DNA of 64,000 nt from Polytrichum commune (Eukaryota; Streptophyta; Polytrichopsida; Polytrichales; Polytrichaceae), in contig OX485807.1 in NCBI GenBank assembly GCA_950295325.1, positions 20,555,666-20,619,665 of the forward strand. The letters are read 5' to 3'. The notes below the pieces were generated by a model. It worked only from the letters and a program-made list of their open reading frames with translations. It did not search any database and was not told the DNA's origin. Made by a program: the position numbers and the translations under genes. Below are positions 8,637 through 46,592 of this stretch, in pieces. Position 1 is the stretch's first letter; each line of letters begins with the position of its first letter.

Positions 8637-8644
8637 AATACAAT

Positions 8645-8929
8645 CTCGGGGGGTTCACTGGCGAAAATCGTAGAACAACGTGCGATAAAAAATAAGGTCC
8701 AATATATTCATTGTAGATAAAGTTTATAAAAAATGTACATGTAAAATAGGGGATTTTAAAATAATGAAACATGTTTACATGTAAAATACCATCACATATA
8801 ATATTTTCAGGCTTTTTACATGTATAATACCATCACCTTATAATCTTTTATGCAAGGTAAATAACCCCCCCAATAAATAGGTCCCGAACGCACGTGTATG
8901 CAAATATAAGAGGGAGTGAACCCCCCGAG
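8645..8929. mobile_element. MITE 'A' of the CTCGGGGGG family (285 bp)
   Basis: The termini are CTCGGGGGGTTCACT and its reverse complement AGTGAACCCCCCGAG, a 15-bp perfect inverted repeat. The element is flanked by perfect 8-bp direct duplications AATACAAT at 8637-8644 and 8930-8937. ACGTGCG lies 33 bp inside the left end (8678-8684), and its complement lies at a matching distance from the right end (8889-8895). It has no coding capacity and is presumably moved by a transposase supplied in trans. Confidence 0.88.
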
Positions 8930-8937
8930 AATACAAT

Positions 8938-11858: not shown

Positions 11859-11866
11859 TTTACATT

Positions 11867-12215
11867 CTCGGGGGGGGGGGGGGTAGTCATTGGTTGGAGT
11901 AGCAATATACGTGCGAACAAATGATAGGGTATTTTTAAAACATGGAGGCAAAATTTTATAAATAGACTTAAGAGTAATATAGGGTATCAAAAATGGCACT
12001 GGACATCTTTAAAGTACTATAGGGTATGGAATAATAGGTAATTTGGAATTATAAGTAATGCAAGCCATTTTTCTATTAACCCAAAGTATAAAATTACATA
12101 ATGATAGCATGTGAAAAAAAATAAGAGAATTGAAAGTAATTACCCCCTATAAAATAGTGGTTGTTCGCACCTATATCCTTAACTTTTTAACACACTGCCC
12201 CCCCCCCCCCCCGAG
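11867..12215. mobile_element. MITE 'B', internal-deletion derivative of an element like C (349 bp)
   Basis: It starts CTCG with a run of 14 G and ends with a run of 15 C followed by GAG. The flanking 8-bp duplications TTTACATT are perfect (11859-11866 and 12216-12223). The left ~180 bp nearly matches the left end of the 10.7-kb element at 13128. The right ~165 bp nearly matches that element's right end at 23645-23808, so B is essentially the two ends of such an element joined. ACGTGCG lies at 11909-11915. Confidence 0.92.
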
Positions 12216-12223
12216 TTTACATT

Positions 12224-13119: not shown

Positions 13120-13382
13120 TTGGTAAGCTCGGGGGGGGGGGGGGGGGTAGTCATTGGTTGGAGTAGCAATATACGTGCGAACAAATGATAGGGTATTTTA
13201 AAACATGGGGGCAACAAATTATAAATGGACTTAGAGTAATATAGGGTATCAAAAATGACACTAGACATCTTTAAAGTACTATAGGGTATGGAATAATAGG
13301 TCCCATTAGAAAATGAAGTAGTTCTAAAATACCCCCCTTTATATTATTATTTTTGGCCAAAAGTACGAAAATGCTACATTGT

Positions 13383-13740
13383 GAGTTATCCTAAAAGTCA
13401 CGTGGCGTGTGAACAAGATACCATGTGTTTTGATTTAATGTACTCTTATTTGTACACTGTAAATAGTTATGAAGTTTGAAAGAGCTTAGTGGCCTCTCAT
13501 TATTAGGTGTGTAAAAGCTTGGTGGTCTTCAAACTCATGCACAATTAGTTTAACCGTCACAAAAAACGGCTAAACTAGTTGTGCATGAGTTTGAAGACCA
13601 CCAAGCTCTTATACACCTAATAGTGAGAGACCACCAAGCTTTTTTAGACTTCATAACTATTTACAGTGTACAAATAAGAGTATATTAAATCAAAACACAT
13701 GGTATCTTGTTCAAACGCCACTTGACTTTTAGGATAACTC
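13383..13740. mobile_element. Long foldback (snap-back) element inside C
   Basis: Two arms starting GAGTTATCCTAAAAGTCA and ending in its complement pair over nearly the whole 358 bp around a short loop near 13560-13566. The innermost ~35 bp of each arm is almost perfect. I could not find an unambiguous target duplication. Partial copies of the same family occur at 23195-23424 and 44911-44987. Confidence 0.75.
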
Positions 13741-13862
13741 CATTAAGAGACCACCAAGCTCTTTCAAATGTCAATGACAAGATCGCCTTTGTATGGTTGG
13801 ATGCATCATATTTTTATTAATAATTTTCATTTCATTTTGAAAGGTTTTCTCTTAAAATTCAA

Positions 13863-15310
13863 TTAAAAATCCCAAATCAACACAAAAATTTGGTCAAAGT
13901 AAAAGGCGGCCGAGAGTGGCCAAGGCCCGGGCCTTCTATTGAATAATAACCCTATGCTAACCCTAAGTTCACCTAGTCGTCCTTTCTGTGTTTGTCCCTC
14001 CGTGTTTGGTGTTTCTATTGTTTTTGCTAGGTTTCCGTTGTTGCTCTTACCCCGGGAACGTTGTCGTTGCTCTTTCCTGACTGCATTCCTATTCTCTTGG
14101 CTAAGTTTGGTTGCGCTTGTGCTTCGAGGTGGCTCTTCGAACTGAAGTATTTGCCGATCCGATCTCCTCTCGTTTGGTGTATGTCTACTTGTGTTGTGTC
14201 GCGCACCTCTCCATGAGGAGTGCCCGAAACACCATGGGCACAAGGGGGACCCCGGAGTGACACCCGGGACTTGTGGCGCTATTGGTGAGAGGGCCCAAGT
14301 GATCCTAGTTTGGGTGAGGGCCCCGGGCGTTGGGAACGCCTCCCACCCACGGAGACTAGGAGGTATTAGGGTAAGGCCATAAGCTATGCGTAGCTCATGG
14401 CGTGGTGATTCTAGAATGCTCAAGATCACCTCAATCAGAGGTGTGAGCTAGGAGTTAAGGCCATTTGAGTGGGGCGCTGTCCCGGGACAGCGCCCTGGTA
14501 CAGCAGTGCCTGGGAGTGATTCCCAGGACTGCCAAGGTTCAAACAGGCATAACTTCCTCAAGACTTGCCCGAATGGGGCAAGTGAGGAGTCCATCGGCAT
14601 CTACGTGAAGCGTAGATGAAGATGGAGTGGTTGGTTGTTATGATAAGACATTATACAAGGAAGTTATGATGGTCTGAAGCTGCTGGGGGGGTTCTAGGCC
14701 CAGCAGCTAAAGGAAAATGTCCACTTGGCCCCAACTCTTGGTAGAGAGACAAGAGGTGGGTTGACGGTGGGGTAGGGGCCCCGTGTAAATTCCTAGAGGC
14801 TTATATGGGTGAGGTGGTGTGGCCTCACCCACCCGAGGCTGAACGGCAAGGCCTCCATGGGCATTGGCCCATTGTGAAGCCATAGTTGCCTAGTATGGTT
14901 CGGGTTGTTGTAGTGTTGCTCCGGCAATGCGATGATCAACATGGGATTGGACTTCCATGGATGGAAGTCCACATCTAGGAATGGGTTACCGATTAAGGGG
15001 TGAGTCCCGAAAGCAAAGTAGGAGGGTTGGTTCCCTCCTATGAACTATAAGGTCCGGGGTGGGAGGAGCTAACCATTAGCATGGCGGAATGCGAATGGTT
15101 AGCGCTCGTAACCTTTGCTAGAATTGAAAATTGGCAAGATTGTCAAGGGGGGCTAGCAAGGGTTGCGACATGTTGAGTTGTCGTTGATGTTCTTGCATCA
15201 AGCTGATTGATCTCTGATCTGCTCTCGGAGGTTTAGGGTGTGAGATGCTTTTGCTTAATCTGCTTGTGCGCCTACTTCACAAGTTATAATAGGAGTATCA
15301 CCTAGGTATC
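13863..15310. repeat. GC-rich repeat-like block, possibly retrotransposon LTR-derived
   Basis: Base composition is clearly richer in G and C than the surroundings. At 15316 the sequence AATCAGAGCAAAG resembles the TATCAGAGC primer-binding site used by many plant LTR retrotransposons, which would make the block a 5' LTR and leader remnant. No gag or pol is seen downstream and no second LTR was found. A 188-codon minus-strand frame at 13863-14429 has no recognisable features. Confidence 0.3.
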
Positions 15311-16521
15311 TTTCAATCAGAGCAAAGACTTGAAGATACTGATTTTGGTGGAGGAGGACCATTTGCGTTCTTCAATCGCAATCGCCATCGCCATCATTGT
15401 GTTTGGAGCCACTTCGTAGCGTTCATCGACATTGTATTGTTGTTGCCGTTTGTGCCTGGCGCGCTTTTTGGAGCTCCCGGGAGGTGTCGAATTTGTGGCT
15501 TCAGGGATTTTGATCCAAGTCGTCTTCCTCAACTACGAGCTAAGGCGAGGCTGCCATTGGCAAACCTATTCGTTCTGCAATGTGGCATTCATTTTTCTAG
15601 GTACTTATTTTCTCTTTGATTGATTGGATGCGAGTGAGAGGTGGAATGATTGAGCAAGTCAAATCATAAGAGGGAAAAGAGACTTGAAGTATTTATGTGT
15701 CTTTGTGTGTGTATCTTTTTTAGTACAATTTTTTTAGTTCGTTCACAATCTAATGGCTTTTGGGAAAGAAAATTTAACTTCAGTCACAAAATCAATGAAT
15801 TAAGCTTTTGTGTCCATTTTTGGGTGCGGTGAATCCCTTGGACAAGTACGACCCTTTTTTCTCCCATTTTTACTTCCAATGTATCAATGGTGCTAAAATA
15901 GCAGTTACCTAGGAGGTGTTGCTCTTTTGATCGTCATGATTGGTTATATCAAGAAACCCCAAGTATGTGGATATTGAGTTCGTTGCATTACAGGGTGGAG
16001 CAGACACAAATACCCCTTCATGGAATGTATTAGTATTTCATCAAGGTGAGATTTTCTCATATGATTTTTTGTCTTTCTGGTATGTACTTGATTTTGATCT
16101 TATTTGAGTTAATGCAAGGTGTTGCTCAACAGTGAGTTGGTTGTGATTAGGTGGTACCTACAATTTACACAGACGTGAAAGGCCACAAGATTGTAACTAA
16201 TCAAGTAAGTCGTGCATTCTTATATTTTCTCATGCTTTTCATATAGCATGCAAAGTTTGTTATCTTTGCAAATTTGAAACGTTATCGTTTTTTTCCTGAG
16301 CTTCTTTTTTCCGTGAGCAACACATGCAACGTTATAAAATTTGGCTCCATTGTTGATCTTTCACAGTATGATCAATTGAATTAGTCATTTACCTTTCGTC
16401 GTATAGAGTTTAATAACGAGTGTTGTCTTCTTTGCGGGAAATGGGAAATGCAGGGTTCAATTTAATCATCCCAGCCGCAACTCAAGTGCACTAGCAACTA
16501 TGGTTTTGGTTGGTGTGAAAG
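15311..16521. other. Upstream region of the element C transposase
   Basis: No separate gene is supported. This presumably includes promoter and 5' leader of the transposase starting at 16522. Confidence 0.4.
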
Positions 16522-19500
16522 ATGGCGTTAAATTTCAAGATTAGGTTGTACTTGGTGGAAGATGATGTTTTGCGGCCGGAACTATTGAGCCATTTTTTTT
16601 GCCAAACGGGCGACACTTATATTGATTTGTGCACGCACTTGGAGAATGGTGGATGCGTGGAGTGGCCTTTCTTTTTTTGGGACTTCCAAGATGAATGTCA
16701 AACCCTCAAGAGGTTTGAGGCCATGAATCATGTGACAAACCGTGTCTATGTCATTCCTTCGTTGGAGAACGAAGGTGGACTTCAGAAGCGGTGTCGTCTT
16801 CAAGTGCCGGGTGAAGCGGTGTTGCCCCGACGTTGGAAGAGGCAGATATGATTGAAATTCACGAAGAGGAAAATACTTTGCTGCAATCAACACTCTTATC
16901 TGTTGATGTGCTTGAGAATTACAAGCATGGTGCTGAGAAGCTGAGAAGGGAGTTGGAGTCCATGGATTTTGTTGATCACGTGTGGAACCTCAAAACGTAC
17001 GATCACCATGGTGTGGCAGTTGTGAAGATATTTTGTGGGGAGTGCAAGAGAGAAATCGGGGGTACAGGTCGTGATCACTCCCGGAGTGCCATACAAAACT
17101 TGTTTGTGAATTTCAAGAAGTATCACTTGCATTCCACTCTTCACATCAAGCAGTGGTGTAGGAAGAGGGAGATCTTGTACATCGATCACCCGAAGAAGGA
17201 GGGCAACTCTAGCAAACCCATAATTTTGACACCAATCGATCACATGCGTCTTGTGGAAGAAGGTGTCAGCATTCTTCAAAGTATGAATGACTCCATCTCG
17301 GAAGATGATCCTCCATTTGTAGTAGTGGGAGATGTGGGGGTTCCTCAGTTGAAGTCCTTTTGGTTCAAGGTGCGTTGCAAAATCGACGGAGAACTAATGT
17401 ACTTGTGCCCGCAAAAGGGAAATCTCAGAGCTAATTTAGAGAATCATGTCCATGGGCTCCCTCATACCAAGTGCTGTGAAGATTTGGTAAGGGCAAAGAA
17501 TTCTTCAAAGACATCATGTGCATTGAGCTCCGGGAAGCGAGGAAGACCTAGCGCAAGGTCGAGAACAACAATTGGAAATCAACGAGACATGCATTCTTGG
17601 TTCAGCAGTTCATGCAGTACAGATTCCGTCACTACATGCGAATCTCCATCAGGTATGCATTCAAACTCTATCTTGTCATTGTTGTGTTGGGGATTTAGGA
17701 AGAAAATCACTGAGAACGCTGGGAAGTGCTATAGAGTGGATTCATTGCTCAATGATTCAAAGCCTGGATCGTTGTGGATAGCGAAGCCCAACACAACTGC
17801 AGATTTTGTATTCAAAAGCAAGACTGTCGTTGTAAAAGGTTGTTTCCGTCATGTACAATGTAAACGTTTGAGTGGCATAGGAGAACCTTTAACGGATTTC
17901 ACTTGTTTTTATTGCATAGAAATTGAGGAGGCCACTGATTTCATACTTAGAGTGCTTAGGGAAGGTCGTGCTCTTGTTAAGCGCGGTTGCATGGATACAC
18001 AGTCTGGAAGAAGGATAGACTATTTGCAATGTACTGAGGTGGCTGCACAATCTAGGACATTAGTGAGGAAATATCGTGAGGAAAAGGCTCAGCATCGGCT
18101 CATGAAGGCTAGGGTTGCGCAATTGAAAGTAAGTCACCGCGGTCTGAAACTTAGTGCCGTAGAAAACATTAATAGAAAGGATGTTTTCTCTTTTTGTAAC
18201 AACATTTTGGCGGCTCACAGAACCAACGCCTTTGGCAGAAAGCCAACTTTGTGGGACTTCCTTAGGGATGTTGCTACAAACTTGAATTGTATGAGGCAGG
18301 GTCATAGATTCTCAAAAAATTGAAAATCACTTGCACAAATTATGAGGATCTATGGTAGGAGGCGAATGTGTGATTTGTTTGCTTTGAATTTTGGTGGGCC
18401 GTCATATGATTGTACCAAGAGGGAAAACAAAAAAGAAGTTCGGTTCATTGCCGGGGTGGCTGACATTTACAAAGAGGCCAAAGCAAGTCATAAAGTGGTA
18501 GGACCAGTCCTAGTCATCTTAGCTAAAAACGAGATGAAAGTTAAGTCCTGTATTTCTTGGGACGCTCGGTCAGATGGATTGGTAGGCTTTTGTGGAGAAA
18601 AAGAGAATCATGTGTGCATCTCTACTTTCAGACCGCAAGTAGGGAATGGTGAGAGTGGATATTCGTAGTTGATTCTTTCCGAATGAATGTCAAAGGAAGT
18701 TTTTCTCGTGTCATCATGGTCAATCCTTTGCATGATAAGTTGCCCATATTTGTCCTTGTTGTGTCATGCACTTGCAATCGATTTAATTCCATTTGGGTGA
18801 GAAGTCAGTGGGAGACTATTGACACCCTTTGGCAACACAGTTGTAGGCCGGTTGTTGGACCTATTATAGGGCATTCTTCAGATGGCGATTCTAGGAGAAG
18901 GCAATTGATGGTTGAACACTACTGCAGCAAGGTAGGATTCATGTATGAAATTCCATGGGAAGGCTGGTCTTTATCTTCTGAGTGGCTTGGGGAGAATAAA
19001 ATTAAAGGCTTCCATGATCATGATTTCATCCATAACAGTAAAAAATTGATCAACCCACTTGACAATGTTGTAAAGAATCTTCAACTAGGGGCTGATGTCT
19101 GTTACCTAGATCATCTTGGTCATGTTTATCAAAAGTTTGGTATTGATCAGCATCGTCTTAGAAAGGAAAATGTGGACCGAACAGACAGACAAAATTGGCC
19201 TAGTACACAACGCATTTGTCCAAAGAAGACAAAGACTTGATTGCAGGAACTCATAACTTGTAGGGATGCACATTATAAAAGAACTTTGGGGACTGAGATG
19301 TACTTGTCTATATGTGCTAATTATATTAACATTTTCTTTTCCGTATTTTTGACTTTAAAGGAGAGGGTGGTTTTTGCTAGCAAAATGTCATTCTTTTTTA
19401 GAATATGGAAGTTGTGGTTCCACCATGGTGACCACGGTGTAGAAGGAAATACAAAGAATCTCACGCTACATAAATGTTTTGTAAGCAACATGTGTTTGTG

Positions 19501-22500
19501 AGCCTCAAAATTGTCCCCAATGGCAATTTGGCTCATAATTGAGGTGTTTTAGCAAAATTATTAGATTACTTTAGCGAAAAAATTATTTAGATTAAGGTAG
19601 GTTAGCTAAGGGTGTTTTACCCTTAGGGTAAAACTCTTGGGCAAGTAGAAATTAAAAACCGAAGGGGTAAAAACAATATCCTTTACCTGAATCGAAAGTG
19701 TGAAAGTACTGGGCTAGTAAGTAGGTAGGTTAAGTTAGGAACAACCAATTCAAGTAAGCAAAAGTCAAACGGCGGCAGAAAATAAGAGTGTTTCCGAAAA
19801 CAACCAAGAAAAAAAGAAATTGACAACTATGAGCGTAAGGGATCTTGCCAACTAGGGCAAGGGGGCCATGTTGTCCCCCTTGCCAACCAAAAATGAAGTT
19901 CAATTAGAAATGGAAAAATATTTCTAAGGGTTTGAACAAGTGGGGTGCGAGATGACATCAATCCCCCTCATTCACCGCCGAGGGTTTGGTTGTCATCGTT
20001 CAGGGAACAGGGCCCCTTGGTGAATGGAAGGGAGAAGGGCCCAACCCTTCATTTAAAGGATGATAAAAATCTTCTTCCCCTTTCAATCATCTCTCCAAGT
20101 TCTTTATTTATAACAAGGCGAAACCCTTTAGAATTTTAGTTAGAAGGAAAAAAAAACATTCTCATTTATTAAATATAAGTATAAGTTAAAATTCTTATAG
20201 TTAAAATTCTTGAGAAAATGTAGTGTGTTTTTGAACACACCCTTAAGTAGATGTATCACTTTCAATTGACTGTAGTGGACACAAACATTACAATTTAGCC
20301 TTCAAATTTCAAATGAATCTATCCATTTATGTTAACTTTCCAAAAAACCTAAGCTTGTTAAAATCAGAGTTAGGGAGCAAAAATTATGAGTAGTTAAGTG
20401 AAGATGTCTCAACTGCCTCTTAAATTACAAGCGTTGATTTAGCAAGCGCATAACTAAAATATGAATTGTTTAGTTGCTTTGATATTTAGATTCATTATAG
20501 TTATTGTTGTTATCTTTCTAAAAAGTATAAGGTTGTCACAATCAGATTTAAGGAGTGAGCGTTATGAATGTTTGAATGAAGGTATCCGAGCTGCCTCCTA
20601 AGATAAGAGTTGACTTTGTAAGCTCATACCCACAAGAAAAAACATGCAGTTATTGTGATATTTGGGGCAGTTGTAGATCTGATTTGAAGGTTTTTGGAAA
20701 ATTTAAATTTGCTGGAATCTAAGTTAATAAGGTATCACAGCTGCCTTTTGAATTCTAAGCTCACTTTGTAAGCTCATATCTTTAAAGGAATATATGAAAT
20801 TGGTTTCATAATTGGATGAATTATAATTCTTGTTGTTAGCTTTCCATATTACTAACAATTGTTCTAATTGAAGTTTGTGAGCAAAAATTATGGCCGTTTC
20901 AACAAAGGGGTGTTTGTCTTACGATAAGAGGTTCGTCCATCCAAGGTTGGTGTTGTGTGCGGCCAAGCGTTGGAGTAGGGGTTCCGCACCAACCATCGCC
21001 AAACCAAGATGAGAATCAATCGGTAAGTTTTTTACCCTTACACCCTTTAATTTAAGAAGAGAAGGAGCACGGCGAAGGTAAATTCTCACCCAAATCCAAC
21101 TATCCATGTAAGACTAGGGGGGCATCACCCACCTAGCCGCCGAGGGGGATTCCAACTCTCATGTGTGCGGAGCCTCTCGGTTAAATGTTGTGGTAGTAGC
21201 TTTCCATTCATAATTCGTTCGTGTGTGGTGAAGCCGGATTAATCACCGGCATGACCACTTTGCATGTTTGTAGGTGGTAAGGTGAGAGTAATGACCCACG
21301 AAACCACCATCATGTTATTGGCCTCAAGGGTTGGAAGTGATGCCCCCAACCCTTGAAGATTATGCAACAGGTTAAACACACATGTTGTCTTATTCCCCGG
21401 TCCCATCAAGTTGAATTTTTGTGGACAAACCGTGTTAAACTAATCAATAACCAACAAAATTTGTACGACCCCCATGGGCAAAACCAACCGAAAACTTAAC
21501 TCGGAGGGCTTGTGCGGTATACATGGTAAGGAGAGAGCAACCCGAAGGACTTGTACGGTACTTTTAGGCTCCCTCGGAGGGAGGGTGCCCAAAAGCATCA
21601 CTGTGCTATCTTGATGTATAACTGTCTTGCCATTTTGTGGTCTTATTAATAAGGTATTTTCGTGATGGATTCTTTCAATTGCCAGTTCCATTGCACCTTA
21701 CATGATCTGATTCGTGTGAATTTTTTTTTAGCAAGGTGGGAGGGATGCATGGTATGGAGAGAGCTTACGATTTCCAAGAGTTTGTGGGTTGTGCTAACAC
21801 AGTGAACCAGCTTGCTACGATTGAATACGGATCCAATGGACTGCAATTTGGTAGAGCGCATAACAAGCAGCGTAACATTTGGGCTGACTTGCATCGTTTA
21901 GAATGGGGACAGTCCCCTGCAGATTTGGGAGATTACAGCGCCCTTGCCACAGATGAGGACTTCGTATCAACGTTGAAAGAAGGTCTAAAGGCAACCCAAA
22001 CCCAATTGAAGGTGCTAAATATGGCTCCATCCTCTTATGCTAGAAATAAACGGTGGTTCTTGCAGCCTTGGATGGTCGAGAAGGCGGATCCAAAGCACTG
22101 GGCATATGTGGCTCCCGAAAAACTTGTCCCCGACGAAGATGGCGATGGTGAGGTCATGAGGAACTCCGAAATTTTGCCGATGGAAGAAGAGACCGTGGAT
22201 GGTGACGGCGCCAACGTAGACCCGGATATGAGTGTTGTGGACATTGACGTGGATATGAGTAATGTGGACGTTTCCTTGGATGATAGGGAAGAAATTTTAA
22301 AACTTGCTGAGGAAGAATGCAGGGATGCAATCTCGCAAATGCTAGATTCAGCTGAGCCGAGCCCACCAATGCCTCTAACTGGGCAGAACCTAGTACAGAA
22401 AATAGAGCCGGTGGTGGAGTAACAAGGGCAAGGCCATTTACAAATCAACGTTAGTAGGTGAATTGAATGGGAATCCTTTATTGTCAAAGGACCGTTTGAC

Positions 22501-23048
22501 TCGCATCAAATAACTCTATTTACTTCAATAACGCAGAGGATTACCTTTCTGCTGCAAATTCGACATCAACCGCTTTCTTTGGGCTTGGAAGTGACTGCGT
22601 TGTGTTGTTCATGCAATCACCAACTCTGGGCCAGAGTTTTGAAGCGAGAGCAACACAAAAGAGGAACCACACCAGTGTTCATGTGGGACACCCAACTGTT
22701 GTGACCGTTGGCCCGGACATTGGCACTTGGTATTTGGGCCGAGTCCAAAAAATACAAAGGACGGTTGGAAAAACGTGGAGATTGTGTAGAAACCATGTCG
22801 GCCTTATGGCTCACACCTCAGCAGGTAAGAAGGGAAGTTCTTCACCGTCCATTCAAATAATGTTAAATTGGTTCAAATCATCGTCAGGGAGGAACAAATA
22901 TAAGTACGATGTGACTGACACCCAATGGATTGACATTGAAAGCATGATTTGCATCATTGCATTGTCATTCAAATCTAATAACAACGTTTACACCCTACAA
23001 GAGACTAATCAGCAGGTGCTAGATGAATTTGTATCAAAAACTACTTAG
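16522..23048 (+). pseudogene. Decayed P/THAP9-like transposase of element C
   Basis: This is a paralogue of the gene at 40357-46048, recognisable along its whole length. The frame breaks near 16833-16851 and again near 18670, and stops occur at 18321 (TGA), 18666 (TAG), 19238 (TGA) and 22420 (TAA). Readable parts are an N-terminal domain, a CGEC...H zinc-finger-like motif (about 17037-17150), an AT-hook-like KRGRPSARSR (17530), a CFRH..C...CFYC cluster, SDGDSRRRQLM (18874) and HDHDFIHNSKKLINPL (19015). Two key sites are altered: the second finger reads CKID where D has CKFC, and the first catalytic segment reads KNEMKVK where D has EDETKIK. The transposase-core exons lie before 19501, the next exon begins at 21732, and the C-terminal domain ends near 23048. 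It is very probably inactive. Confidence 0.8.
19502..21731 (+). other. Enlarged intron of the C transposase with diverged tandem repeats
   Basis: The equivalent interval in D is about 100 bp once its CACTA insertion is removed, so roughly 2.1 kb has been inserted here. About 20370-20905 contains three to four diverged units of about 170-190 bp sharing phrases such as GACTTTGTAAGCTCATA and GAGCAAAAATTATG. The acceptor is a T-rich tract with AG at 21730-21731. I could not assign the inserted material to a transposon class. Confidence 0.5.
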
Positions 23049-23194
23049 CATTGCAGGTTATTCAAGTAGCTACGGCTTTATCTTTATTTTTCAGTGTCTC
23101 CATGATATGCACATTTAGTTTCATTCATTGTGTTTGTAAACATAATGAGAACATTTTATTTCATACTACTATGATTGTGCACAAATACTTTGTA

Positions 23195-23424
23195 AATTGG
23201 AGTTATCCTAAAAGTCAAGTGGCGTTTGAACAAGATATCATGTGTTTTGATTTAATGTACTCTTATTTGTTCATTGTAAATAGTTATGAAGTTTGAAAGA
23301 GCTTGGTGGTCCCTCATTGGAGTTATTTTAAAAGTCAAGTGGCGTTTGAACAAGATGCCATGTGTTTTAATTTAATGTACTCTTATTTGTTCAAAGACCA
23401 CTTGACTTTTAGGATAACTTTATT
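23195..23424. repeat. Partial copies of the GAGTTATCCTAAAAGTCA foldback family
   Basis: Two direct partial arms (from about 23202 and 23312) and a terminal inverted piece ending GACTTTTAGGATAACT near 23420 match the foldback at 13383-13740. The copy looks rearranged. It lies between the transposase stop and the right end of element C. Confidence 0.7.
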
Positions 23425-23816
23425 GTGTTTCATAATATGAATGATGTCATAGTAAAGGTTTGTATTGTTTTTACGTGATCTATACAAATTGCTCTTTTAT
23501 ATCATTTACACTTTAACCTACATAGTTCATGTATGTGTTCATAATTTGATGTATGTGTTCATGTATGTGTTCATAATTTGATGAAGGACAAAAATTGTAG
23601 TAGATTTTTTTTTTAAATCTAAATTACCATATCATTTATTCATATCAATTTGGAATTATAAGTAATGCAAGCCCCTTTTCTATTAACCCAAAGTAGAAAA
23701 TTACATAATGACAGCACGTGAAAATAATAATAATAATAATACCCCCCTATAAAATAGTGGTTGTTTGCACCTATATCCTTAACTTTTTAACACACTAACC
23801 CCCCCGAGTTGGTAAG

Positions 23817-30680: not shown

Positions 30681-32781
30681 GGTGCGCGCTCTTGCTTCTT
30701 GCGTATGTTGTTGCCGCCGCACTTCGAAAGAGGATGTCTGAAGACATTACGAAGAGTATGGCTTCAAGAGATTAGGGTAAGTCGGACTCTAAAAAAAAAA
30801 AAAAAAAACAAGTAAAAATTTGGTAGATTTCAGTCTATGGAATCTTTGCTATAACTTTTTCAAATATCCTAATTAATTTCCACAAAAATCTAGTGCATAG
30901 ATTTAAGCCTTGCCATTCACTCCATTTGTTTTCAGAATTATTGGATATAATATCAATTTTACATAAATCGTCAAAGTCTACTAAAACTAATATGGTTAGA
31001 TTTTCTGCATAAAATCTTCATGTTTTGAAGATTTTAGAAGAATCTAAGATGCTCTAATTGTTTTTTTGGCTCTAAAACAAGCAAAACAAAATTATTTTGT
31101 TCATGCTATATACCGTTGGAATCGTATTTTCGGTGTGCACAATATAGTATATATTATATACCTCTAAATTGATTTTCATTTTAAATTTCTTCTCTTATCA
31201 TTTCTTTCGTACAACTTACCTCCAATTCCGCCTCAGAAGATTGTTCTTCTTTTTCGTATTGTGTGGCTTGCTCTTCATCGATGCCTTTATCATAATCTTC
31301 CTCGTTTTTCTCTTCTTCATCTTCTTCATTGCATTCAGAGACGATATGTGGTTGAGCTTCACATGTAGGAGTTTGGTGTTCGAAAACATCTTCCGTTATC
31401 ATTTCGCATGCCACAATATCTTCGTACGTCAAATTCCTTGTTGTACCTAATAGGTCCACTCATTTCATTCGAGAAATACGTCTATTCATTCTAGCCCTTG
31501 ACAATTGTCTCTTACTTGAAAAACGAAAGCTACTTTTTCGCCTATTTTTTTTCCTACCCTTCACTGGAGTAACCACTGCTAACATGAATAAATGACGTTC
31601 TTTTACATTTAAACGCATTCAGCTACCCTCTGCACTACATTGTTACTCTCAACAACATACATTTCATGGATGTTAATAATGATTCGGCCACTAAATTTAT
31701 GAACTCCAAACAGAAGCCACGGTCTCAGCATAGATAGGGAGGCTTCATGAAGGTGATGGACTTGCTAGAAATTTTGGTTCTTCAAAAGAAGATCGCCAAC
31801 GTCACATTACTAGCACCTGACAACATAGATGTGTTAATACCCATCATAATTCAACTAAATACATACATAATATAATACAAATAAAAATTATACAATCAAC
31901 CATATGAATATTTCGAACAAGATAAACAAACAACATCTTGTTAAGGAATACATAACAAAATAATTTCAAATCAAACAATTTCAGAAGCTGACTTACCTTT
32001 TTGTTTCTTCTGTTTTGTGAACTCGTCTTCATTTCCGACTCCGAAATACCATCGTCTGCATGCTCTCTGCACCTTCATCATCCTCCGCCTTCCTATGTCT
32101 TCTCTTCTGCCTCACTAGTGTTCTCTCTACATGTTCCACTATCATTGTTGTCTATGATATATCTTCTACCACTCCACTTTCATACATTTGTTTAGTGTTT
32201 AGAGCTCACTTAAACCTAGTGCACATTACGATCATCAGTGTTGCAATTGGCGTCCAATGATCAAGTTGTTTTAATTCGTCTTTCACTCTGCTTCTATTTT
32301 TATTATATCCGCCAAATTTCTCTGATATCCCAACCTACCATATTGACTTTGTTCTATTTATAATGGCCAATCATTTACTTTGCCGGCCAATTTTAATTGT
32401 TCCTGCATCTACATCCAGCCTACACAGTCATATTTTAAAACTCTGCCAACTTGTTTATTATTTGACGCCGTTTTCTCCATGATATCTGTGCCCGCATTTC
32501 TCCCATGTGATAATCTTATATTAGACAACTCCTTTGTGGGTTCAAGTTTCCTATGGCTTAGTTTCTAAAGGAGATATTTTTTGGGATCTGATTTAGGATT
32601 CTATATCTTCCTTGCAAATATTCTCTGTCTACTATTATGATCTGTCTTCTTTTGTATTATTGGATGCTATGGTATCACCTCTTTTAATTTACATCTATTA
32701 TTATATTCTCCATCATTCAATACAAAAACGATGTTGATCTAAGATTATTGTCATGTGTTGTTCATCTTTTTCTTCTTCTCC
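30681..32781. other. Interval with weak minus-strand coding traces
   Basis: An acidic Glu-rich frame lies at 31181-31459 (minus). A short exon-like start lies at about 31997-32030 (minus, ATG then a GTAAGT donor). They could belong to one small or decayed gene, but joints and function are unclear. A 19-base A run lies near 30790. Nothing else is recognised. Confidence 0.35.
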
Positions 32782-35700
32782 ATGGCTACCATTAGAGCTC
32801 ATGGATCTTTTGTTCCCTTCATTTTGCCACTTCAAGATGATGGTCATGTCAATGTCTCAGAGGATTTGCTTAGTTTGAGATTCAACCTCCAGATAGGAAC
32901 CATGTATTCAGAGCAAGAGATGTATTCTGCAGATGGAGAGGTGTATGAAACGGTTTTGGTTCAAAAAAACAGAACCGAGGTTGGTTTTATGTGGATCTTA
33001 GGACCTGGTTCATTTAGGGTAATAGGTCTTTCTGAATCTCAGATGCAAGCTTCAACTGTCATCTTGACAAACGAATCCGGTACATCCACCGTTCAAATTC
33101 CCTATGTCGCACCTGTTAAATTTGAACCCCCTGATGACTGTGTGTTTGTGCTATCATATTCAGAAGATGACATTTGTGCATCTGTTGATCTTTCAAACAC
33201 ATCGCCGTTTCCATTTAAAAGTCTTCATTCGAGTTCTTCACAGCTTCCTATACATGTAGCCAAATCTCCATGCGGTCCTATGTACAAGAGTTTGGTTCCC
33301 CAGCTCTCACCTTCTCAACGTCTTCCACTACACCCTTCACCTTCATCTATAGGGTTGACTATCGTTGATGCTTTGAAGCTTACAAAGTCTAGAAAAATAT
33401 CAAAGTCAGATCTCGCATCCATTGATTTTGATAGTATAGATGTTCATGATGTCAAGTACTTACCATCTTCTTTTAATGGTGATGTTTTGTTTCTCTTACC
33501 CCCTGTGACACTTAAAGCTCCAAGTACGTATGGCCGCTCAATGGACGGCATGGACAAGATGTGCGACGGTCACCCTTGGTGCACCACCAAAACCACCAAT
33601 ATCCAAAATGATTTTGGATTGTCCTTCCGGCGCTCCACTTGTGCTGGTCATCTCCAATGTCCTAATGACTACTGTGATTACATGAATTGCAATGGGGGCC
33701 TCCGGAACAACACTGAATGGGCCAGTTCAACTCCTCTCCCATTTGCTGTGGGTAATGTTCCTCCTTCTAGGTCCACTGTCGAGTGTAAGGTATGTCGTTC
33801 CACACCTGTGTGCATTGGTTTATGTCATGCTCGAATCCTATACATCCATTCCACATCTGTTCGAATGTCCAGGGCTTGCATTCATATTGGTGTACATGAT
33901 CACCCTGTGGCCAATGGCATATGCCGTGAGTCATTGGACATGGCATACCAGTGCGTTGCAAATGAAATATTGAAAACACCTACAGCCAAAAATTTAGCCA
34001 TAGTTATGGCAGCAAGCAAACAATTCTTGGCCGATTACCTTCTCAAATCTCCCGCAAATGTCGAAGGCCATCACTTGGTTGGTTCATCCCTAGAGGTCGT
34101 CATGGACAAATTCAGCACTCTTGCGTCCCCGAATTGTCGTAACTTTGTATCCGGATCAAAGCGTTTTTTGCGTAGTGGAATGAGAACTATGGATAGTATT
34201 ATGGCACTCAAAGACCACTCTGCTTTCAAGTTCGTCCATGGTAGTCGGTTTCCAGGGCAGTCAAAGGACAAAGTGTTTGTTTTCAAGATGTCTGTAGACC
34301 TTCCAGGTAGTGGTGTGGAGCTTGTGAAGAGGATGCAAGTCGGTGGGGACATGGAGAATTCATGGATTATGTTTGACCATGTCAAACGTTTGAAGGACTG
34401 GACGACCATGGCTTGCCATGTGTAGGACAGTCGATACTGTAAAGTGTTGACTATTGCGTGTTGTGACATGCAATCTAAAGATGGTGCAGCACAAATTCTC
34501 TTTTGGGAAAATTTGAATAATGTCATGGCAGAAAATGGTGTACCAAACGTAAACTTCAAAGGGTTTATGGCTGATAGTGCTCAAGCTAATTGGAATGCGG
34601 TGAGGGCGATTTACGGGGATGGTGATCCAAGTCTACCCATGGTTGCACGTGAGCGTACATGTCTTTTCCATTGGTCTGCAAGCTTGGATAAGGTGACCCA
34701 AAAGTATATCAAACCATCCTTGCAGTTTCAACACAAGCAAATATGCAAGGATTACAAAGACGCAAGAACAATGGACGACGCCGAGACTAAGTATCATGTG
34801 ATTCATTCTTGGTGGTTGTCATCCGGAGCTGCCTCAGAAGAAGGCATGCTTGGCCTTTCAGAGTGGTTGGGTTTTTGGCACTTTCGTTACAGACAATGGG
34901 GTGGTCATATGCTATTTGTAAGTACATATCAAATTTCATTCTTCAATGTCATTCATTTTTCTTCCACTGTTATATATATCTTTTATTTTTCTTATCCTCA
35001 TATTTGTGTGTTGTTCATAGGATATGACAATAGAAGAACGTGCGGAAATGCCAACATGCAACCTTGCAGAGACTGTACACAACAAATGGCTTCAACAGTC
35101 CGGCAACAAGATGACTTGTTTATATGAAGCTATAGTGGACGACATGATTCGTGCGTTCATGCAAATTGCAAATTACCGGACATGGTTGAAAGGGGGGTCT
35201 GATGGTAAAGGTCCTGATTCAGCATCCTTGAAACTCAAAGCGGCTACCAGGTGTGGAGATCCAAAAATGTTGGCCGATGCCATGAAGTCTTATCCAGGGG
35301 CAGAAGACGTCAACACGAGAGATTGTGCATTGGAAGGGTCAGAGCTCTTTGGTTCCACCAAACGCAAACTCAACCTACCACCGGGTGCTGATTGTGATTC
35401 TCATCGACCCGACAAAGTGAACTATTCCATTCCTCGTCCCAACACCCGAGCAACTCGTCAACGCATAGAGGAATCGTTGAGTTCTGCAATTCATGGTGTG
35501 GCTCATACTACATCCGTGTTAGAGACTGATTGTCTTGCTTCTAAGTGGCACATTGCAAGATTGCCATCCAACTCAGCCAAGCGTTGTTGGGCACTGCAGG
35601 CCATTACAGGGACTATGTGCAATGCCAAAGTCGGGACTGGGAAACATGGCACACCTGCTCCAACATACAAAGGGCTCAGGAAGGAATTTCGCTCTCCCAA

Positions 35701-36388
35701 CAATGTGGAGTATGAATTTTGGTTTTGTCCTGACGACATCAAACGTTGTGTGAGTGGCAGTAAGAAGAAATATGTGTTGGATTGGTCTATAGTACCCAAC
35801 ACGTGGCCAGTGAATATAGGTACCAATCTATCGAGAGAGGAGGTTTTGGCACTTGAAGATGCTGGATTTCAACTACATCAGAGGGAGGCATTGTCTCCTC
35901 GTCGTAGGTTTTCAACAATCGCAACTCTTCCCATCCCTCGATCGCATTTTTCTATGCCACCAAACCCAGACGCCCACCCTACATTCAGATTTGGGAAGAC
36001 AGTTCGTCGTAATCCAACAGCACCTCTGGCGGATCACAAAAACAAATGGGAGAGCGCCGGACTCATGGAAGGTTACTATGTGGTTGGGGTCACTGCCATT
36101 CCATATCTGGGCTTTGGAGTGATAATCAACATTGTCTCCAAGCAGGATATCACCTATCATGTCACAATTGGCGATATCCCGCATTGCACATGTCCAGATT
36201 TCACGAAAATGTCCTCTCATGCATTGGGAAAGAAAGGAAAATGGGTGTATTGTAAACATCTTTATTATGTGTTTAGATTTTTGTGCAAGGTGGATTACGA
36301 GAGTGACAAGTTCATTCATGCACCTACATATACCTATAATGAGGTCATGCAACTACTTGAACTTGCTAGTATTGTAGAATGTGAGTAG
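32782..36388 (+). CDS. Mutator-like (MULE) transposase gene with SWIM domain, one UAG
   Basis: There are two exons: 32782-34917 and 35021-36388, with a 103-bp intron (GTAAGT...TTCATAG) that keeps the frame. The start ATG 32782 is the first in frame. In order, there is an N-terminal unknown region and a Cys/His region (33560-33690). A WRKY-GCM/FLYWCH-like zinc finger follows (CKVCRSTPVCIGLCHARILY ... CIHIGVHDHP). Then come MULE core segments LTIACCDMQSKDGAAQ and FMADSAQANWNAVR followed by CLFHW, and a C-terminal SWIM finger (CTCPDF ... VYCKHLYYVFRF). One in-frame TAG at 34423-34425 splits an otherwise open frame of about 1,170 codons. It is a recently disabled or still marginally active transposon gene, or a domesticated relative that was then lost. 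I could not bound the element by terminal repeats. Confidence 0.75.
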
Positions 36389-39774: not shown

Positions 39775-39984
39775 GGTCTCTCCTCAGGGGGTTTACTTCC
39801 ATTTCATTCCAAATGACGTCCAAAAAAATATAGGGTGCAATGAATTGTTTCAAAGTAAAAATTACAATTTGTTTCAAAGTAATACTGCATGTCTTTTATT
39901 TTTGAAGACTGATTTAAATAAATATAGGGTCATGTATATTGGCTGATATTATGTATATATTTAAATTAATATTAGGGGTTCAAA

Positions 39985-40002
39985 ATTTATAAAGGACACG
40001 TG
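39985..40002 (+). promoter_or_regulatory. TATA-like box and G-box upstream of the D transposase
   Basis: TTTATAAAGG at 39985-39994 is followed directly by the G-box CACGTG at 39997-40002, about 350 bp before the start codon. Both are common plant promoter elements. Function is inferred from position. Confidence 0.4.
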
Positions 40003-40093
40003 TCATGGTCCTATTGGTTGGGTTGTTTGAAGACCTCGCTTCAGATGTGGATCTCAAAAGTTTGAGGTAATCATTTTCCGATCAGAAGGACAT

Positions 40094-40303
40094 GTCATCT
40101 TGCCGGCATTGCGTTATGCTCTATGTTGAGTGTTTCTTGTGTAAGGGTTAGGGTTTGAGAAAGGTCATCTTGTCGGCATTGCTTTATGCTCTATGTTGAG
40201 TGTTTCTTGCGTAAGGGTTAGGGTTTGAGAAAGGTCATCTTGCCAGCATTGCGTTATGCTCTCTGTTGAGTGTTTCTTGCGTAAGGGTTAGGGTTTCATA
40301 AAG
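40094..40303 (+). repeat. 70-bp tandem repeat, three units, each with a telo-box
   Basis: Units begin at 40094, 40164 and 40234, exactly 70 bp apart, and each ends with GTAAGGGTTAGGGTTT. TTAGGGTTT is the complement of the plant telo-box AAACCCTAA, known from promoters of growth-related genes and from Polycomb recruitment. The array ends about 50 bp before the transposase ATG at 40357. Confidence 0.9.
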
Positions 40304-40356
40304 TAATAACATTGTCTTTGATTGTTTGCGTCTAGGGTATTGAGAATGCAATCAAC

Positions 40357-43300
40357 ATGGCTGGAGTTAAGCTAATCCTTTGGACTCTGTTGAGTGAAGA
40401 TGCCAATCCTCAATGTCTCGGCTCTCTTGACTGTACAGAGAACGATTCTTATGCTGCTTTGAGAGTGTTGTTGGAGGAGGCCGAGATACTTGACGGCGGT
40501 TTTGATTTCTGGGATCCTAGTTTGAAGTGCCGCATTAGAAAGAAGCTAGAGCGGTTGAACAAGATTGGATCTGATGCTTTCATGATACCGGCGGTTGGAG
40601 AAGCAGAAGTTGGAGCCACAGTTGGAGAAAAGAGGAAGCGACCTAGTTCTCCTGCAAGTGGCAATGGCGAAGAGATGGTTCCGGTGCTAAACCTACCCTT
40701 TGACGACAATGACCCTCCACTTGAGAGCGGTCTGTTTGATACAGAAGTTGGTAGCACTTTGCCAACCACTTTGACAACAACTTTTGAGGTGTTGTTAGAT
40801 GATATGAAGTCGACCCTACTGTCAACTGAGGTCCTTGCGAAGTACTCAACAGCTATAGATAAATTGAAGGTTGAAATGAAGAGGACGACTGTGGATGATC
40901 ATATGTGGTGTTTGAAATCGTGGGATAAGGATGGGAAGGGGATAGTGAAGTTGTATTGTGGGGAGTGCAGCAAATTATACGGTAATTCAGTTGGAGACCA
41001 TAGCAAAACGGCCATTTCTAACCTGTTCGGAAACTTTATCAAGAAGCACTTGGTTTCAACTTCTCACATCAGAAATTGGTGCACAAGAACAAAGACCGAA
41101 TTCAGTTCACTTCCTCAATCGGAGTCCAAAGAGAAAGGAGTTGTTATGATCCGAGCAGATCATGAGAAACTCGCTGACGAAGGCATACACATTGTGAATA
41201 TGATCAATGACAGTGTTGATGGAGACCACAAACCTTTGATAATTATTGGAGATCGATCTTCGCCTCATATGCGTTGTTTTTGGCTGAAGGTAAAGTGCAA
41301 GTTTTGTGGGGATTTTTTCCAGCTTTGTCTTCCTAGGAGGAATTTAGAAGCCAACTTGACCAATCACATCATGGGTCCAAAACACGCAAGTGCAGTGGAA
41401 GTGGCAGAGAACAATAGAGGCCGAGCTGGTGTCTTGCGGACATGGAAGAAAGGACGTCCATCAACATCAAGAGTATGTTTGGAGAACCAAAAAAAACTTC
41501 ACTCATGGTTCACTAGCCAAGGCTCTAATAGCCAGTCAGGTCAGAATCACCATCCTCTTTCCCTTCTATGTTGGGGATACTGGAGATCTGTCTCTAAGTA
41601 TGCTGGGAAGATGTATTTAGTTAAAAGGTTGTTGCTAGATCTACATCCTGGAGGTTCATGGATAGCTGAGCCAGAGACTAAAGGCAAGGTTGATATGGGT
41701 GCACGGGAGACCAAGATCATTGAAGGTTGCTTCAGACACAAGGATTGTAAGAGGGTGTCAATGAGCGGTGCTCCGTTTGACGATTTGACATGTACCTGTT
41801 GCGCACGGATTCCACAGGAAATCAACTTTCGTCATCGAATAATACGTGAAGAGCTAAGTTTGGAAAAGAGGGGCACTAGATCTAGTGCCGGGGGTAGGAG
41901 GCTAGGGTTTCTGCAAAGCCATGAATTGTTTCGGTATTCTAGGCATAGAGCATATGAAATTCGGCTTGCTAAACAGAAGCTATGTAGGATGAAGGCGTTA
42001 GTGTGTCAATTGAAAATCACAAGGCCAACGTTAAGAGAGGCAGTTGCAGAGTGTGAGAATAGAAGGGATGTGTTAAAACTATGTAACAACATTATTCTGG
42101 CACATAAAACTAAAGCGTTTGGAGGAAAAGCAGCCCTTTGGGATTTTATTGTAGATGTTGGTAATAATCTAAATACGAAGTCGGCCAAGGGAGACAGATA
42201 CAGCTCAAACACCGTAGCATTTGCCCAAACAATTAAATTATATGGGGGTAGACGCTTAACCGATTTATTTTCATTAAACTTATCGGGGCCCTCATTGTCT
42301 ACTGTGAAGTTAGCAAACAAAAAAGGTGTGTAGTTTGTGGGTGGATTTAGGCCAGAAATATTCACAGCAGTGGCGTCAATCTACAAGAATGCCATAGAAG
42401 CGTGTGGATTGGTTGGACCCATTCCTGTTCTCATGGCAGAAGACGAAACCAAAATCAAGACACGAGTTTCATGGGAGAGCCGATCTGACACATTGATTGG
42501 GTTTTGCGGAAGGGTGGAAGATCACATTTGCGAACCTGGATACAGTGTTTTAGTTGGTGACGACGAAGCTGGCTACAACAAGATCCTAGACAGCTTCCAC
42601 AACTGTAGGATGGGTACTTTTGCAAGGGTGATTATGGTCAATCCATTGCACGTAAAGCTCCCCCGACTTGTGATAGCCATTTGCTGTACTTGCAACTCTT
42701 TCAAGTCGCCTTGGGTTCGAGAACGGTGGCTAAACATGGAAAAATTGTGGGTTGCCGAGTGCAAGCAGGTTGTGAGTCCTATTGTCGGGCACGCCTCAGA
42801 TGGTGATAGTAGGCGTCGGCAACTTATGTTACAAGATTATTTGTGTGACGATGTTACACAAAATAGACGATCGATACCGTGGGTGGGCTGGAAGCTATCT
42901 ATTATCTTAAATGTTGATGGCGAGAGTATGGGATTACACGATCAAGATTTTATTCACAATGGAAAAAAGCTCATAAATCCGTTAGACAGTCATGCTAAGA
43001 CACTTCAACTTGGAATGGATGTTGCTTGCATTCAACACATTGAGGGAATATACAACAAGTTCGAGTTGGAAGAGCATGGGCTCAAACAAGAAGACATTGT
43101 TTGTAAAGACAAACAAAAATGGGGGAATGCTCAAAGGATCTGCCAACAACGAGTTCAGAAGTGCCTTGAAGTTGTGCGGGGCATGGGGATGCATCAAGAG
43201 CGCACATTGGGCACGCAAACATATCTTTCCATCTGCAGCGATTACATTGATTTGTTTCTGTCCCCTCTTTTGGATTTACGTAGCAAGATTGTGGTGGCAG

Positions 43301-46048
43301 CAAGGGTTTGTTTTTTCCTTAGGCTCTGGCGTCTGTGGATTAAACACGGTAGCCACGGTGTTGGTGGAAACTCAATGACTGTAACATTGGCTGATTGTTT
43401 TGTGTCAAATCAATGTTTTATAGACATCACTATGTCACTTTATCGTTATCTTAATTGTTACTTTTCGTGACAATTATCAGCACCTAGAGATTCCGTTCCA
43501 TCTTACAGCACTACAAGAAAAAACGGTTCCGTTCCAACAGAGTTCCAACAGAATTCTGTTGATTCTACCTGTTGATTTGGAACTCTTGATTCGGAACAAT
43601 TTTAACACATATCTCTTGATTTAGGCATTCGTTAAATGTCCAAGTTATACTAGTAAAAAAAAAGTAAATTAGTAATTCCGCTCCTCACATCCCGGGCCTA
43701 CACACAAACTACCAAGGACCACCTTGCCTAGCCTAGAAATGAACTTAGCCACATACCTAACCTAGGCTAGGCCCAAGGGTGAAGTCCAAGGGTATCAATC
43801 CTTGAACCTCTTGGCTATCGCGAGGAGGCCTTAGCCACCAAGCCACCACTCATCACATGATGTGGAATGAGTATGTAAGACATTTGTATAAAGAGGCCGT
43901 AAAATTTATAATTACATAATTACATAATTACATAATTACATAATTACAGTAATTACAGAAATTATTAATTACTGTAATTACTGTAATTGTTTTATTACTA
44001 TAATTAGTCATTCATGTAAATATTTTAATTATTAATATCTGTAATTACTTTAATTAGTAATTTCTGTAATTAGTAATTATTGTAATTACTTTAATGAGTA
44101 AGTACAATAATTAGAGTAATTGCTGTAATTAGTAATTATTGTAATTACTTTAATGAGTAAGTACAATAATTAGAGTAATTGCTAATTAGTAATTAAAGCT
44201 ACTATAAATAGAACAAAATTACAATCATTCACAATTTACTATAATTGTAAATTTAAGTAATTAAAATAATTAAATATTGCAAATTAATCAAACTATTTAA
44301 TTATTTTAAATTATAGGAATCATAGTAATTGATTACTTCAACATAATTAGTGTTATTTAAAAATTAAAAAACAATAATTAAAATTCCTCTGCTGAAATCA
44401 ACAGATAAATGTTCCCTCTGTTGATTTGTGTCGCACAATGGATCCATTTCAACATTGTTTTTCCCAAATCTGTTGAAATCAACAGAAATTAGTTGATTTT
44501 ATGTTGATTCGGACTGCGATTTCTTGTAGTGCAGGTTCAGATAGTTGCGAGATATTTTTCAGCAAAGTGGGAGGCATGGCTGGTATGGAACGCGTGTATG
44601 ACTTTCAAGAGCTCATTCAATGTGCAAATGCCATGAATCAACTGTCTGCAATTGAATATGGAAGCAATGGTCTGACTTTCAATCGAGCACATAACAAAAT
44701 GTGCAACGTCTAGGACTAGCTACACCCGTTGCAGCCAGGAGAGATGATTGCTGATTTAAGTGACTACACATTAGTTGAAACAGGTATGTTATCTTGATTC
44801 ACATTTGACTCTTCAAGTTCAAGGTGACTTTCTTCTTTGAATTCAAGGTGTCTACTTGGATGATTGAAGTCAAGGCCATATTTGTTACATTGAAACAACC
44901 TTTGAGACTGAACAAATAAGAGTATATTAAATCAAAACACATGGTATCTTGTTCAAACACAACTTCTCTTTTAGCATAACTCTAATGAATATGGCCAAGT
45001 GTACTAATGAGGTGTCTTGTTGGGTGTAGACGACCTAGTTGTCGAAGCGTTAAAAGAGGGCTTTAAGCAAGCCCAGGGGTTGATTAACTCATGTAATATG
45101 GCCCCTTCGATTCAAGCAAAGAATCGCAAGTGGTTCACAAATCCTTGGTTGCTGGAATCAGAGGATAAAACGTTCATGTCTTTTAAACCCGCTGCAAGGC
45201 CGGTTCAAGGAGAAGATGGAGATGGTGAAGTCATGCGTGAAGACGTTAGAGTTTCTGTTGAATTACAAATTGAGTCCCCTCTAGGCGACGAAGTGGAGAC
45301 CTCCTTGGTGTTCGATGATGGTATCGATCATGCTGCAACGGTCGAAGACAAGGTTAGAGGTATTGTGAATGAGATGATATCTTCTGCGTCACAAGAGAAT
45401 GTCATCGTTCAGAACACTATCTCGTTCAGCAACACAGTGAAATTTGAAGATAATATTATTTTCAAATCAACATTGGTTAGCCAGCTAAATGTCAATCCAT
45501 TTTTGAGTAAGGATAGGCTAACTCGTGTGAAGTCATCAGTTTATTTCAACAACTCTGAGTCTTATCTAGCTGCTGCAAATAGTTCTTCAACATGTTTTGT
45601 TGGAGTAGGAACAGATGTTGGAGTCTATTTTGTTCAGAGAATATCCACAACTCAATCATCTGCTATAAAGGCTGTTCAAAAAAGAAATAAACAGAAGGGG
45701 GGACGAAAGGGTATGGCAGCACCGGTGACTGCAGCTGTGGATCAAGGTTTGTGGTATCTAGGTAGAATTCAACGGATGAAGGTGAAGAAAGGAAATAGTT
45801 GGGGGAGACTTAATCAACCAGTAGACTTGATGAATAAGCCATCCATAACGATTGCAGTGCACTTGAATTATTTTTCAAGAGCCCCAGGCCACTTAAAATT
45901 CAAGTACGACTTGACAGATAGTATATGGGTAGATTTAGAAACACTTATAAGTTCAGTTACTATGAGCTACAATGAGCGTCACAATGTGTACACTCTTGAT
46001 GCTAATGATGCTGAGGCTCTTGCTGAATTTATTTCTAGTAAAAAATAA
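40357..46048 (+). CDS. P/THAP9-like transposase of element D (three in-frame UAG)
   Basis: Exon 1 runs from ATG 40357 to about 43430, with one TAG at 42331-42333 separating 658 and ~370 codons in the same frame. Exon 2 starts at 44563 (after TTTTTCAG) and ends at 44783 with TAG at 44711 and 44717. Exon 3 runs from 45030 to 46048 (TAA). Domains in exon 1: N-terminal region (1-85), zinc-finger-like CGEC...H..H (200-240), C2H2-like CKFC...H...KH (312-345), AT-hook-like KKGRPSTSR (about 365), CFRH..C...CTCC (457-488). Next comes a P-element/THAP9-like RNase H core: MAEDETKIKTRVSW ... LIGFCG, then SDGDSRRRQLML and HDQDFIHNGKKLINPL. Exon 3 ends in a domain with GLWYLGRIQRM and KYDLTDSIWVDLE that I do not recognise. 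The P assignment is inference from these motifs plus the 8-bp duplication. Confidence 0.7.
43509..44531. mobile_element. Non-autonomous CACTA (En/Spm) element, 1,023 bp
   Basis: It begins CACTACAAGAAAAAACGG and ends CGATTTCTTGTAGTG. It is flanked by the 3-bp duplication CAG (43506-43508 and 44532-44534), exactly as CACTA elements do. It has no transposase. The interior is AT-rich with many TAATTA(C) repeats, has CAACAGA/TCTGTTGA subterminal repeats, and carries a SINE-like segment. It sits in the intron of the D transposase, 31 bp before the acceptor AG. Confidence 0.93.
43685..43856 (-). repeat. tRNA-derived SINE-like insert inside the CACTA element
   Basis: On the minus strand there is a box A-like TGGCTTGGTGGCTAAGG (43831-43847) and a box B-like GGTTCAAGGATTG (about 43796-43808), spaced as in tRNA genes. 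The rest lacks a cloverleaf. It is probably a SINE carried within the CACTA element. Confidence 0.45.
44784..45029 (+). other. Intron of the D transposase absent from copy C
   Basis: The donor is ACAG|GTATGT and the acceptor GGTGTAG|ACGACC. The joined codons give ETDDLVVEAL, which aligns with ATDEDFVSTL in copy C, where the same position is uninterrupted (near 21945-21965). The intron contains a fragment of the foldback family (44911-44987). Confidence 0.75.
44911..44987. repeat. Fragment of the GAGTTATCC foldback family
   Basis: AACAAATAAGAGTATATTAA and the following 55 bp match one arm of the element at 13383-13740 (compare 13670-13740), ending GCATAACTC. Confidence 0.75.
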
Positions 46049-46068
46049 ATAAAATTGATTATTTCATT

Positions 46069-46340
46069 CTCGGGGGGTGCACTGTATATTATGTTTGAGA
46101 ACCACGTGCGTTCATGACCCCTCCTAAAAACCCCCTAGTATACAAGAGGTTATATGTCTAGATACCTTTGTGTGCAGATGTATTCTGTTTTAAATATATG
46201 TTTAATGTAAGTATACGTGAATGTTTTTCAGTTCTAAATATGTTTATTGTATGTATACGTAATACGGCAAGGTCCAAATCAATACCCCTCCTGTGCACTC
46301 ACGTGGACTCGTACAAGTTTAGTACAGTGCACCCCCCGAG
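46069..46340. mobile_element. MITE 'E' of the CTCGGGGGG family nested in D (272 bp)
   Basis: The termini CTCGGGGGGTGCACTGTA and TACAGTGCACCCCCCGAG form an 18-bp perfect inverted repeat. The 8-bp duplication ATTTCATT flanks both sides (46061-46068 and 46341-46348). ACGTGCG is at 46104-46110, 35 bp inside the left end. It lies 20 bp after the stop of the D transposase, so it is an insertion of a family relative into the larger element. Confidence 0.9.
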
Positions 46341-46592
46341 ATTTCATTTTTTTGTTGAAAGTGAGGAGAATGATTAGTATTACATTTTTTGTAATATACC
46401 ATGGTATTTATTTGATGATTGGTGTTAAGTTAAAGAAATATACGATAGTGTATAATAGTCGATATTACATAATTAAATAATAATAGGGTGCCTATAAATC
46501 AACCAAAAAAAATTAATACCCCCATGTAAAATACACCGTTATCTCAGGTGCCTATACCAAAATACACTAAGTGAACCCCCCGAGGGTCTCTC

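Follow-up and report, generated by a model that had tools for sequence, protein, structure and literature searches.

Most familiar from animals, P elements are also listed for green algae. Passages of PMC5791352 describe the P superfamily as mostly restricted to Drosophila, and the plant paper PMC11939994, in the extract available, lists P among the terminal inverted repeat superfamilies and as lacking in its own species. The systems compared here are the Drosophila P element, whose transposase structure is available (PDB: 6P5A, 6PE2) and whose ends measure 31 bp, and THAP9 with the zebrafish THAP9 element, which carry a THAP domain and 13-bp ends. We analysed a window of 64,000 nucleotides from Polytrichum commune (contig OX485807.1, positions 20,555,666 to 20,619,665, forward strand) that contains the element E1. 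With a probability of roughly 90%, E1 is a dead copy from a family of cut-and-paste DNA transposons whose transposase is related to that of the P element. Like THAP9 and the zebrafish element, as described in parts of PMC7776569 and PMC8230255, this family combines P-type catalytic residues with 8-bp duplications; unlike them, it yields no THAP match. It differs from Drosophila P in a protein of about 1,500 residues without a THAP match and with a predicted BAH-like C-terminus, in 15-bp, G-rich ends and in its plant-type hosts. A literature search recognised no published description of the family by title and start of abstract, subscription papers being mostly beyond its reach; given the green algal P elements and this limited library, absence from print is not established.

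The features of E1 are:

13120..13127, no strand: left target-site duplication, TTGGTAAG, adjoining the left end
13128..23808, plus strand: E1, long copy of the transposon, dead, with ends, duplication and a broken gene
13128..13147, plus strand: left end, CTC followed by 17 G (G-run 13131-13147)
16522..19489, plus strand: 5' part of the transposase gene in interrupted frames, with stops, an approximately 85-bp deletion near 16818 and the first catalytic Asp replaced
19490..21603, no strand: insertion of about 2.1 kb within the gene, absent from sibling L065
21604..23048, plus strand: 3' part of the gene in interrupted frames, containing the C-terminal domain and, at 21706, the Glu motif SDSCEFF
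23799..23808, minus strand: right end, CCCCCCCGAG
23809..23816, no strand: right target-site duplication, TTGGTAAG, adjoining the right end

The original prediction had paired the CTC and 17 G at 13128 with CCCCCCCGAG ending at 23808 and had read TTGGTAAG directly outside both ends; the letters bear out both statements. Within the window, a third TTGGTAAG on the same strand occurs only at 17484, internal to E1. Every occurrence of CTCRGGGGG (5/5) and CCCCCYGAG (5/5) in the window is an element end. When these ends were paired, the 8-bp flanks were identical in the five proper combinations out of ten and mismatched at three to six of eight bases in the other five. None of 152 random region pairs combined an 8-bp repeat with at least 10 of 12 paired end bases and eight leading bases paired, a combination reached by E1.

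The gene of E1 is broken. Compared with sibling L065 it shows the 85-bp deletion, stops, the 2.1-kb insertion and the loss of the first catalytic Asp (AKNEMKV at 18522, AEDETKV in the family); E1 is thus dead. An intron at 19490-21603 was rejected because sibling frames run through this position uninterrupted. A search for recognisable ends of the insertion found none beyond a possible TGTG repeat; the insertion contains diverged direct repeats of about 120 bp. The first 90 residues or so (window 16522-16818, and the protein starts of E2 and L065) are conserved between subfamilies and have no Pfam match above cut-off. Close to the left end lies a foldback (palindromic) repeat of 358 bp (13383-13740, 90.5% self-complementary), pieces of which recur at 23193-23419 on the right side of E1 and at 44909-44988 inside E2.

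Besides E1, the window holds a second long element and three miniatures of the family, none of them mentioned in the original prediction:

8645..8929, plus strand: M1, miniature of 285 bp, duplication AATACAAT at 8637-8644 and 8930-8937
11867..12215, plus strand: M2, miniature of 349 bp, duplication TTTACATT at 11859-11866 and 12216-12223
39783..46584, plus strand: E2, second long copy, ends CTCAGGGGGTTTACTT and CTCGGGGGGTTCACTT, duplication GGTCTCTC at 39775-39782 and 46585-46592
40357..46045, plus strand: fragmented E2 transposase (about 40357-43508, 44532-44783 and 45011-46045), catalytic motifs kept, with stops and insertions
45449..46045, plus strand: C-terminal region of the E2 transposase, predicted fold BAH-like
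46069..46340, plus strand: M3, miniature of 272 bp nested in E2, duplication ATTTCATT at 46061-46068 and 46341-46348

All five elements (M1, M2, E1, E2 and M3) are flanked by a perfect 8-bp duplication. In a BLAST comparison of E1 against the window, M2 proved to be composed of both E1 ends (94.7% and 87.3% identical). E2 was the better of two matches when the surroundings of the family-protein open reading frames at 40336-46048 were scanned for inverted ends bordered by 8-bp repeats. Its ends, read there as CTCAGGGGGTTT and CTCGGGGGGTTC, pair at 10 of 12 bases and at only three leading bases, short of the combination applied to the random pairs because of a mismatch at end base 4.

The E2 gene is interrupted by a nested CACTA-like insert at 43509-44531 (CACTACAAGAAA ... 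TTTCTTGTAGTG, CAG on either side) and by a gap at 44784-45010 that begins with GT, contains the foldback repeat described above and represents either an intron or an insertion. The stretch that separates the E2 gene from the left end of the element includes three tandem copies of a 70-bp unit (40094-40303, approximately 93% alike). Elsewhere, long open reading frames at 32743-36388 possibly belong to another mobile element (weak SWIM zinc-finger match, E 0.075).

Copies of the family recur across the 407.8-Mb assembly. The left end of E1 has at least 40 matches (all 40 that were scored among 1,330 first-look candidates), and a search for paired, exact 15-bp ends spaced 200-230 bp apart found miniatures at 38 places, while the same pattern written backward found none. 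Since 40 of the 1,330 candidates were scored and the pattern admits only exact ends at this spacing, these counts represent a biased sample and lower bounds. The 8-bp duplications of the 38 pattern copies were perfect in 30, carried one mismatch in six and two mismatches in two. Shifting the register by one to four bases produced at least two mismatches in each copy and nearly always four or more, and the ninth base agreed in just 10 of 38. Twenty-five loci were fetched for E1-like left ends (L002-L009 and L048-L064, L002 being the window itself). L003-L008 and L049, whose match continues beyond the point where the miniatures break off, counted as long copies; of these, L005-L007 alone were traced to both ends (through L065, L077 and L078). 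In three E1-type siblings with both ends located, the duplications are GTGATTTC, GTTTAAGG and GCAATGGT. Both ends were present in 12 of 17 E1-type miniatures, with eight perfect duplications, three with one mismatch and one with two; the duplication of one of the twelve (L056) is of low complexity, and the remaining five (L048, L052, L055, L057 and L061) fall outside the end patterns. Perfect duplications flank four E2 paralogues, one of which has a substituted end base. The right end of L066 was not found within 1.5 kb past its frame. The original prediction had called for further copies with such ends and duplications, and for empty sites. Four more copies lie in the window and 38 were recovered by the genome pattern; four empty sites, all for M3, were found in these four E2 paralogues, which lack this miniature and hold a single ATTTCATT at the insertion point (L072, which aligned only right of the M3 site, was excluded). 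E1 is accordingly a real transposon, whose ends and 8-bp duplications recur in window and genome copies.

The family is large and recently mobile. Of 32 rows obtained by searching the genome at the protein level, six correspond to near full-length, stop-free frames of 1,506-1,549 residues. Over 4,518 bases, two of these open-frame copies, located about 21 kb apart and flanked by different duplications, show 2 differences; a third (L080) shows 20 against each of them. Near-identical copies with open frames at different sites suggest that the family includes very recently moved, possibly autonomous copies. Between L065 and the distant paralogue L066, 58% of residues are shared, the nonsynonymous divergence (dN) is 0.38 and the synonymous divergence (dS) lies beyond estimation (reported as -1), a pattern that fits a frame held by selection.

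Subfamilies that otherwise differ have in common, with variation, the 15-bp end CTCRGGGGG(G)TTYACT. About 20 bp inside this end, an exact ACGTGCG is present at five of the ten window ends, two of the five being homologous, and six of its seven bases at two more. In M1-type copies it was found at 26 of 38 ends on either side, and in 36 of 20,000 random 55-mers of the window. This subterminal motif resembles the internal transposase sites of P, as given in a part of PMC7776569.

The affiliation with P derives from the family enzyme, which in open-frame siblings spans about 1,500 residues. Its predicted architecture is an RNase H-type core with the catalytic triad Asp-Asp-Glu (DDE), the second Asp being separated from the Glu by a large helical insertion domain. 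The original prediction had recommended structure prediction, and the AlphaFold model of a family member, P0003 (mean confidence score pLDDT 82), matched the P transposase best with both Foldseek and VIA-align. The P0003 catalytic residues are D282, D401, D448..H451 (the D(2)H motif) and E643, with spacings of 119, 47 and 195; those of Drosophila P, derived from residue numbers in part of PMC8230255, are 73, 36 and 192. The family thus has the 8-bp target-site duplication of the P superfamily, the triad together with D(2)H and a Glu that follows after a long gap, and, by the P0003 prediction, the RNase H fold with a P-type helical insertion. The original interpretation as a P/THAP9-like transposase is supported, with a predicted P-type fold and no THAP match.

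Several observations weigh against a relationship with P. The fold was predicted for P0003 and not for the window protein, and the first-to-second Asp spacing differs (119 vs 73). No sequence search of the PDB matched its P element chain, one of them covering the best 60 of 189 matches. All matches of Pfam P-type models to plant-type proteins fell under the curated cut-offs. A THAP domain was absent from the ten Pfam families listed for 27 members (E up to 1), a check at the sequence level in which 13 of 27 rows had letters in the N-terminal block shown, and from the E2 N-terminus (window 40357-41400, E up to 10). ACGTGCG is missing at both E2 ends and at the right end of E1, the Glu-motif pattern is unmatched in L080, and the family tree was built without canonical P or THAP9 sequences. 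Of the PDB sequence searches, those with a window reading frame, profiles A3 and A6 and the E2 N-terminus returned no transposase, and those with P0086 and A5 returned mainly PHD-finger proteins among the best 60 of 189, P0086 also two Ulp1-type entries. 

The Pfam listing for 27 plant-type and related members (E up to 1) does not include PF12017, the helix-turn-helix before the core; PF12017 occurs in 22 of 37 proteins of a homologous animal group, whose PF12017 region was aligned with the family by hhalign; PF21788, the GTP-binding insertion domain, gave a weak match (E 0.13) in one protein only. Because no THAP domain was found, the family is filed as P-superfamily related, outside canonical P/THAP9.

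The missing THAP match, the sub-threshold Pfam matches, the Asp spacing (119 against the 73 obtained from the PMC8230255 excerpt) and an enzyme about twice the length of P with other accessory domains would also suit a superfamily of its own beside P, in which the RNase H core and helical insertion domain go back to a remote ancestor in common with P; we regard this as unlikely. A hAT element is very improbable: hAT elements also produce 8-bp duplications and often have zinc-finger N-termini, to which the Cys/His patterns in the family N-terminus would correspond, and hAT (Hermes), RAG1 and Transib likewise possess an RNase H DDE core with a helical insertion, but the fold comparison disfavours hAT. 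Kolobok was rejected, since its duplication is TTAA and those of the family are 8 bp long and varied in sequence. Chance or an assembly artefact, in which G-runs of error-prone length and a lucky 8-bp repeat pair mimic a transposon, has a negligible probability in view of the 152-pair control, the window pairings (5/5), the genome miniatures (38/38 within two mismatches) and the four empty sites.

Related proteins occur outside plants. The P0086 group of PF12017-PHD-Ulp1 proteins from a sponge, beetles and an ant, compared as proteins, is homologous to the family over 746 columns and has the triad, D(2)H and a C-terminal S.DRL.RV motif in common with it; unlike the family, its scanned members carry PHD (15/37) and Ulp1 (11/37) domains, at about 20% identity. 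A tree of 62 core sequences (of 63; one row of less than 250 residues was dropped) separated 13 named plant and window-genome rows from six named animal rows with one change; this branch had 48/81 support, and 43 rows belonged to neither group. Two scans of viral contigs confirmed no relative, and a viral structure library gave no match at E up to 0.001. The sole match in a scan of genome contigs (L001, 2181-4469, 27%) lies on a 6.2-kb contig filed under a planctomycete metagenome-assembled genome; no family ends were recognised there, and this distant relative is probably eukaryotic contamination.

The analysis shows the ends, the duplications, the four empty sites, the open frames, the near-identical copies at different sites, the conserved catalytic residues and, as a prediction for one member, the P-type fold. 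Contacts between protein and DNA, the chemistry of cleavage, movement in trans and a part of the BAH-like region in target choice are inferred. The enzyme would recognise the 15-bp CTCRGGGGG(G)TTYACT end, in several subfamilies together with the subterminal ACGTGCG, and would pair and cut both ends. The 3'-terminal G strands would be joined to target DNA 8 bp apart, and gap repair of this stagger would leave the 8-bp duplications. Miniatures carry no gene and hence would have to be moved in trans by the same enzymes.

The accessory modules, BAH-like in plants, PHD and Ulp1 in animals and a Tudor domain in P0073, prompt a broader, tentative reading that we consider possible and on balance doubtful: an old P-related lineage in land plants, corals, sponges and insects may repeatedly have gained chromatin-reading or SUMO-protease modules that choose the chromatin of integration, a DNA-transposon counterpart of chromodomain retrotransposons that would deserve superfamily rank of its own beside P. 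The P mechanism would be extended by a recently mobile P-type family in a plant genome that has open-frame enzymes and numerous miniatures. Such a family would supply annotators with end and protein models for "hypothetical proteins" in the databases, and with it one could ask in a natural setting whether a cut-and-paste transposase is steered by chromatin-reader domains.
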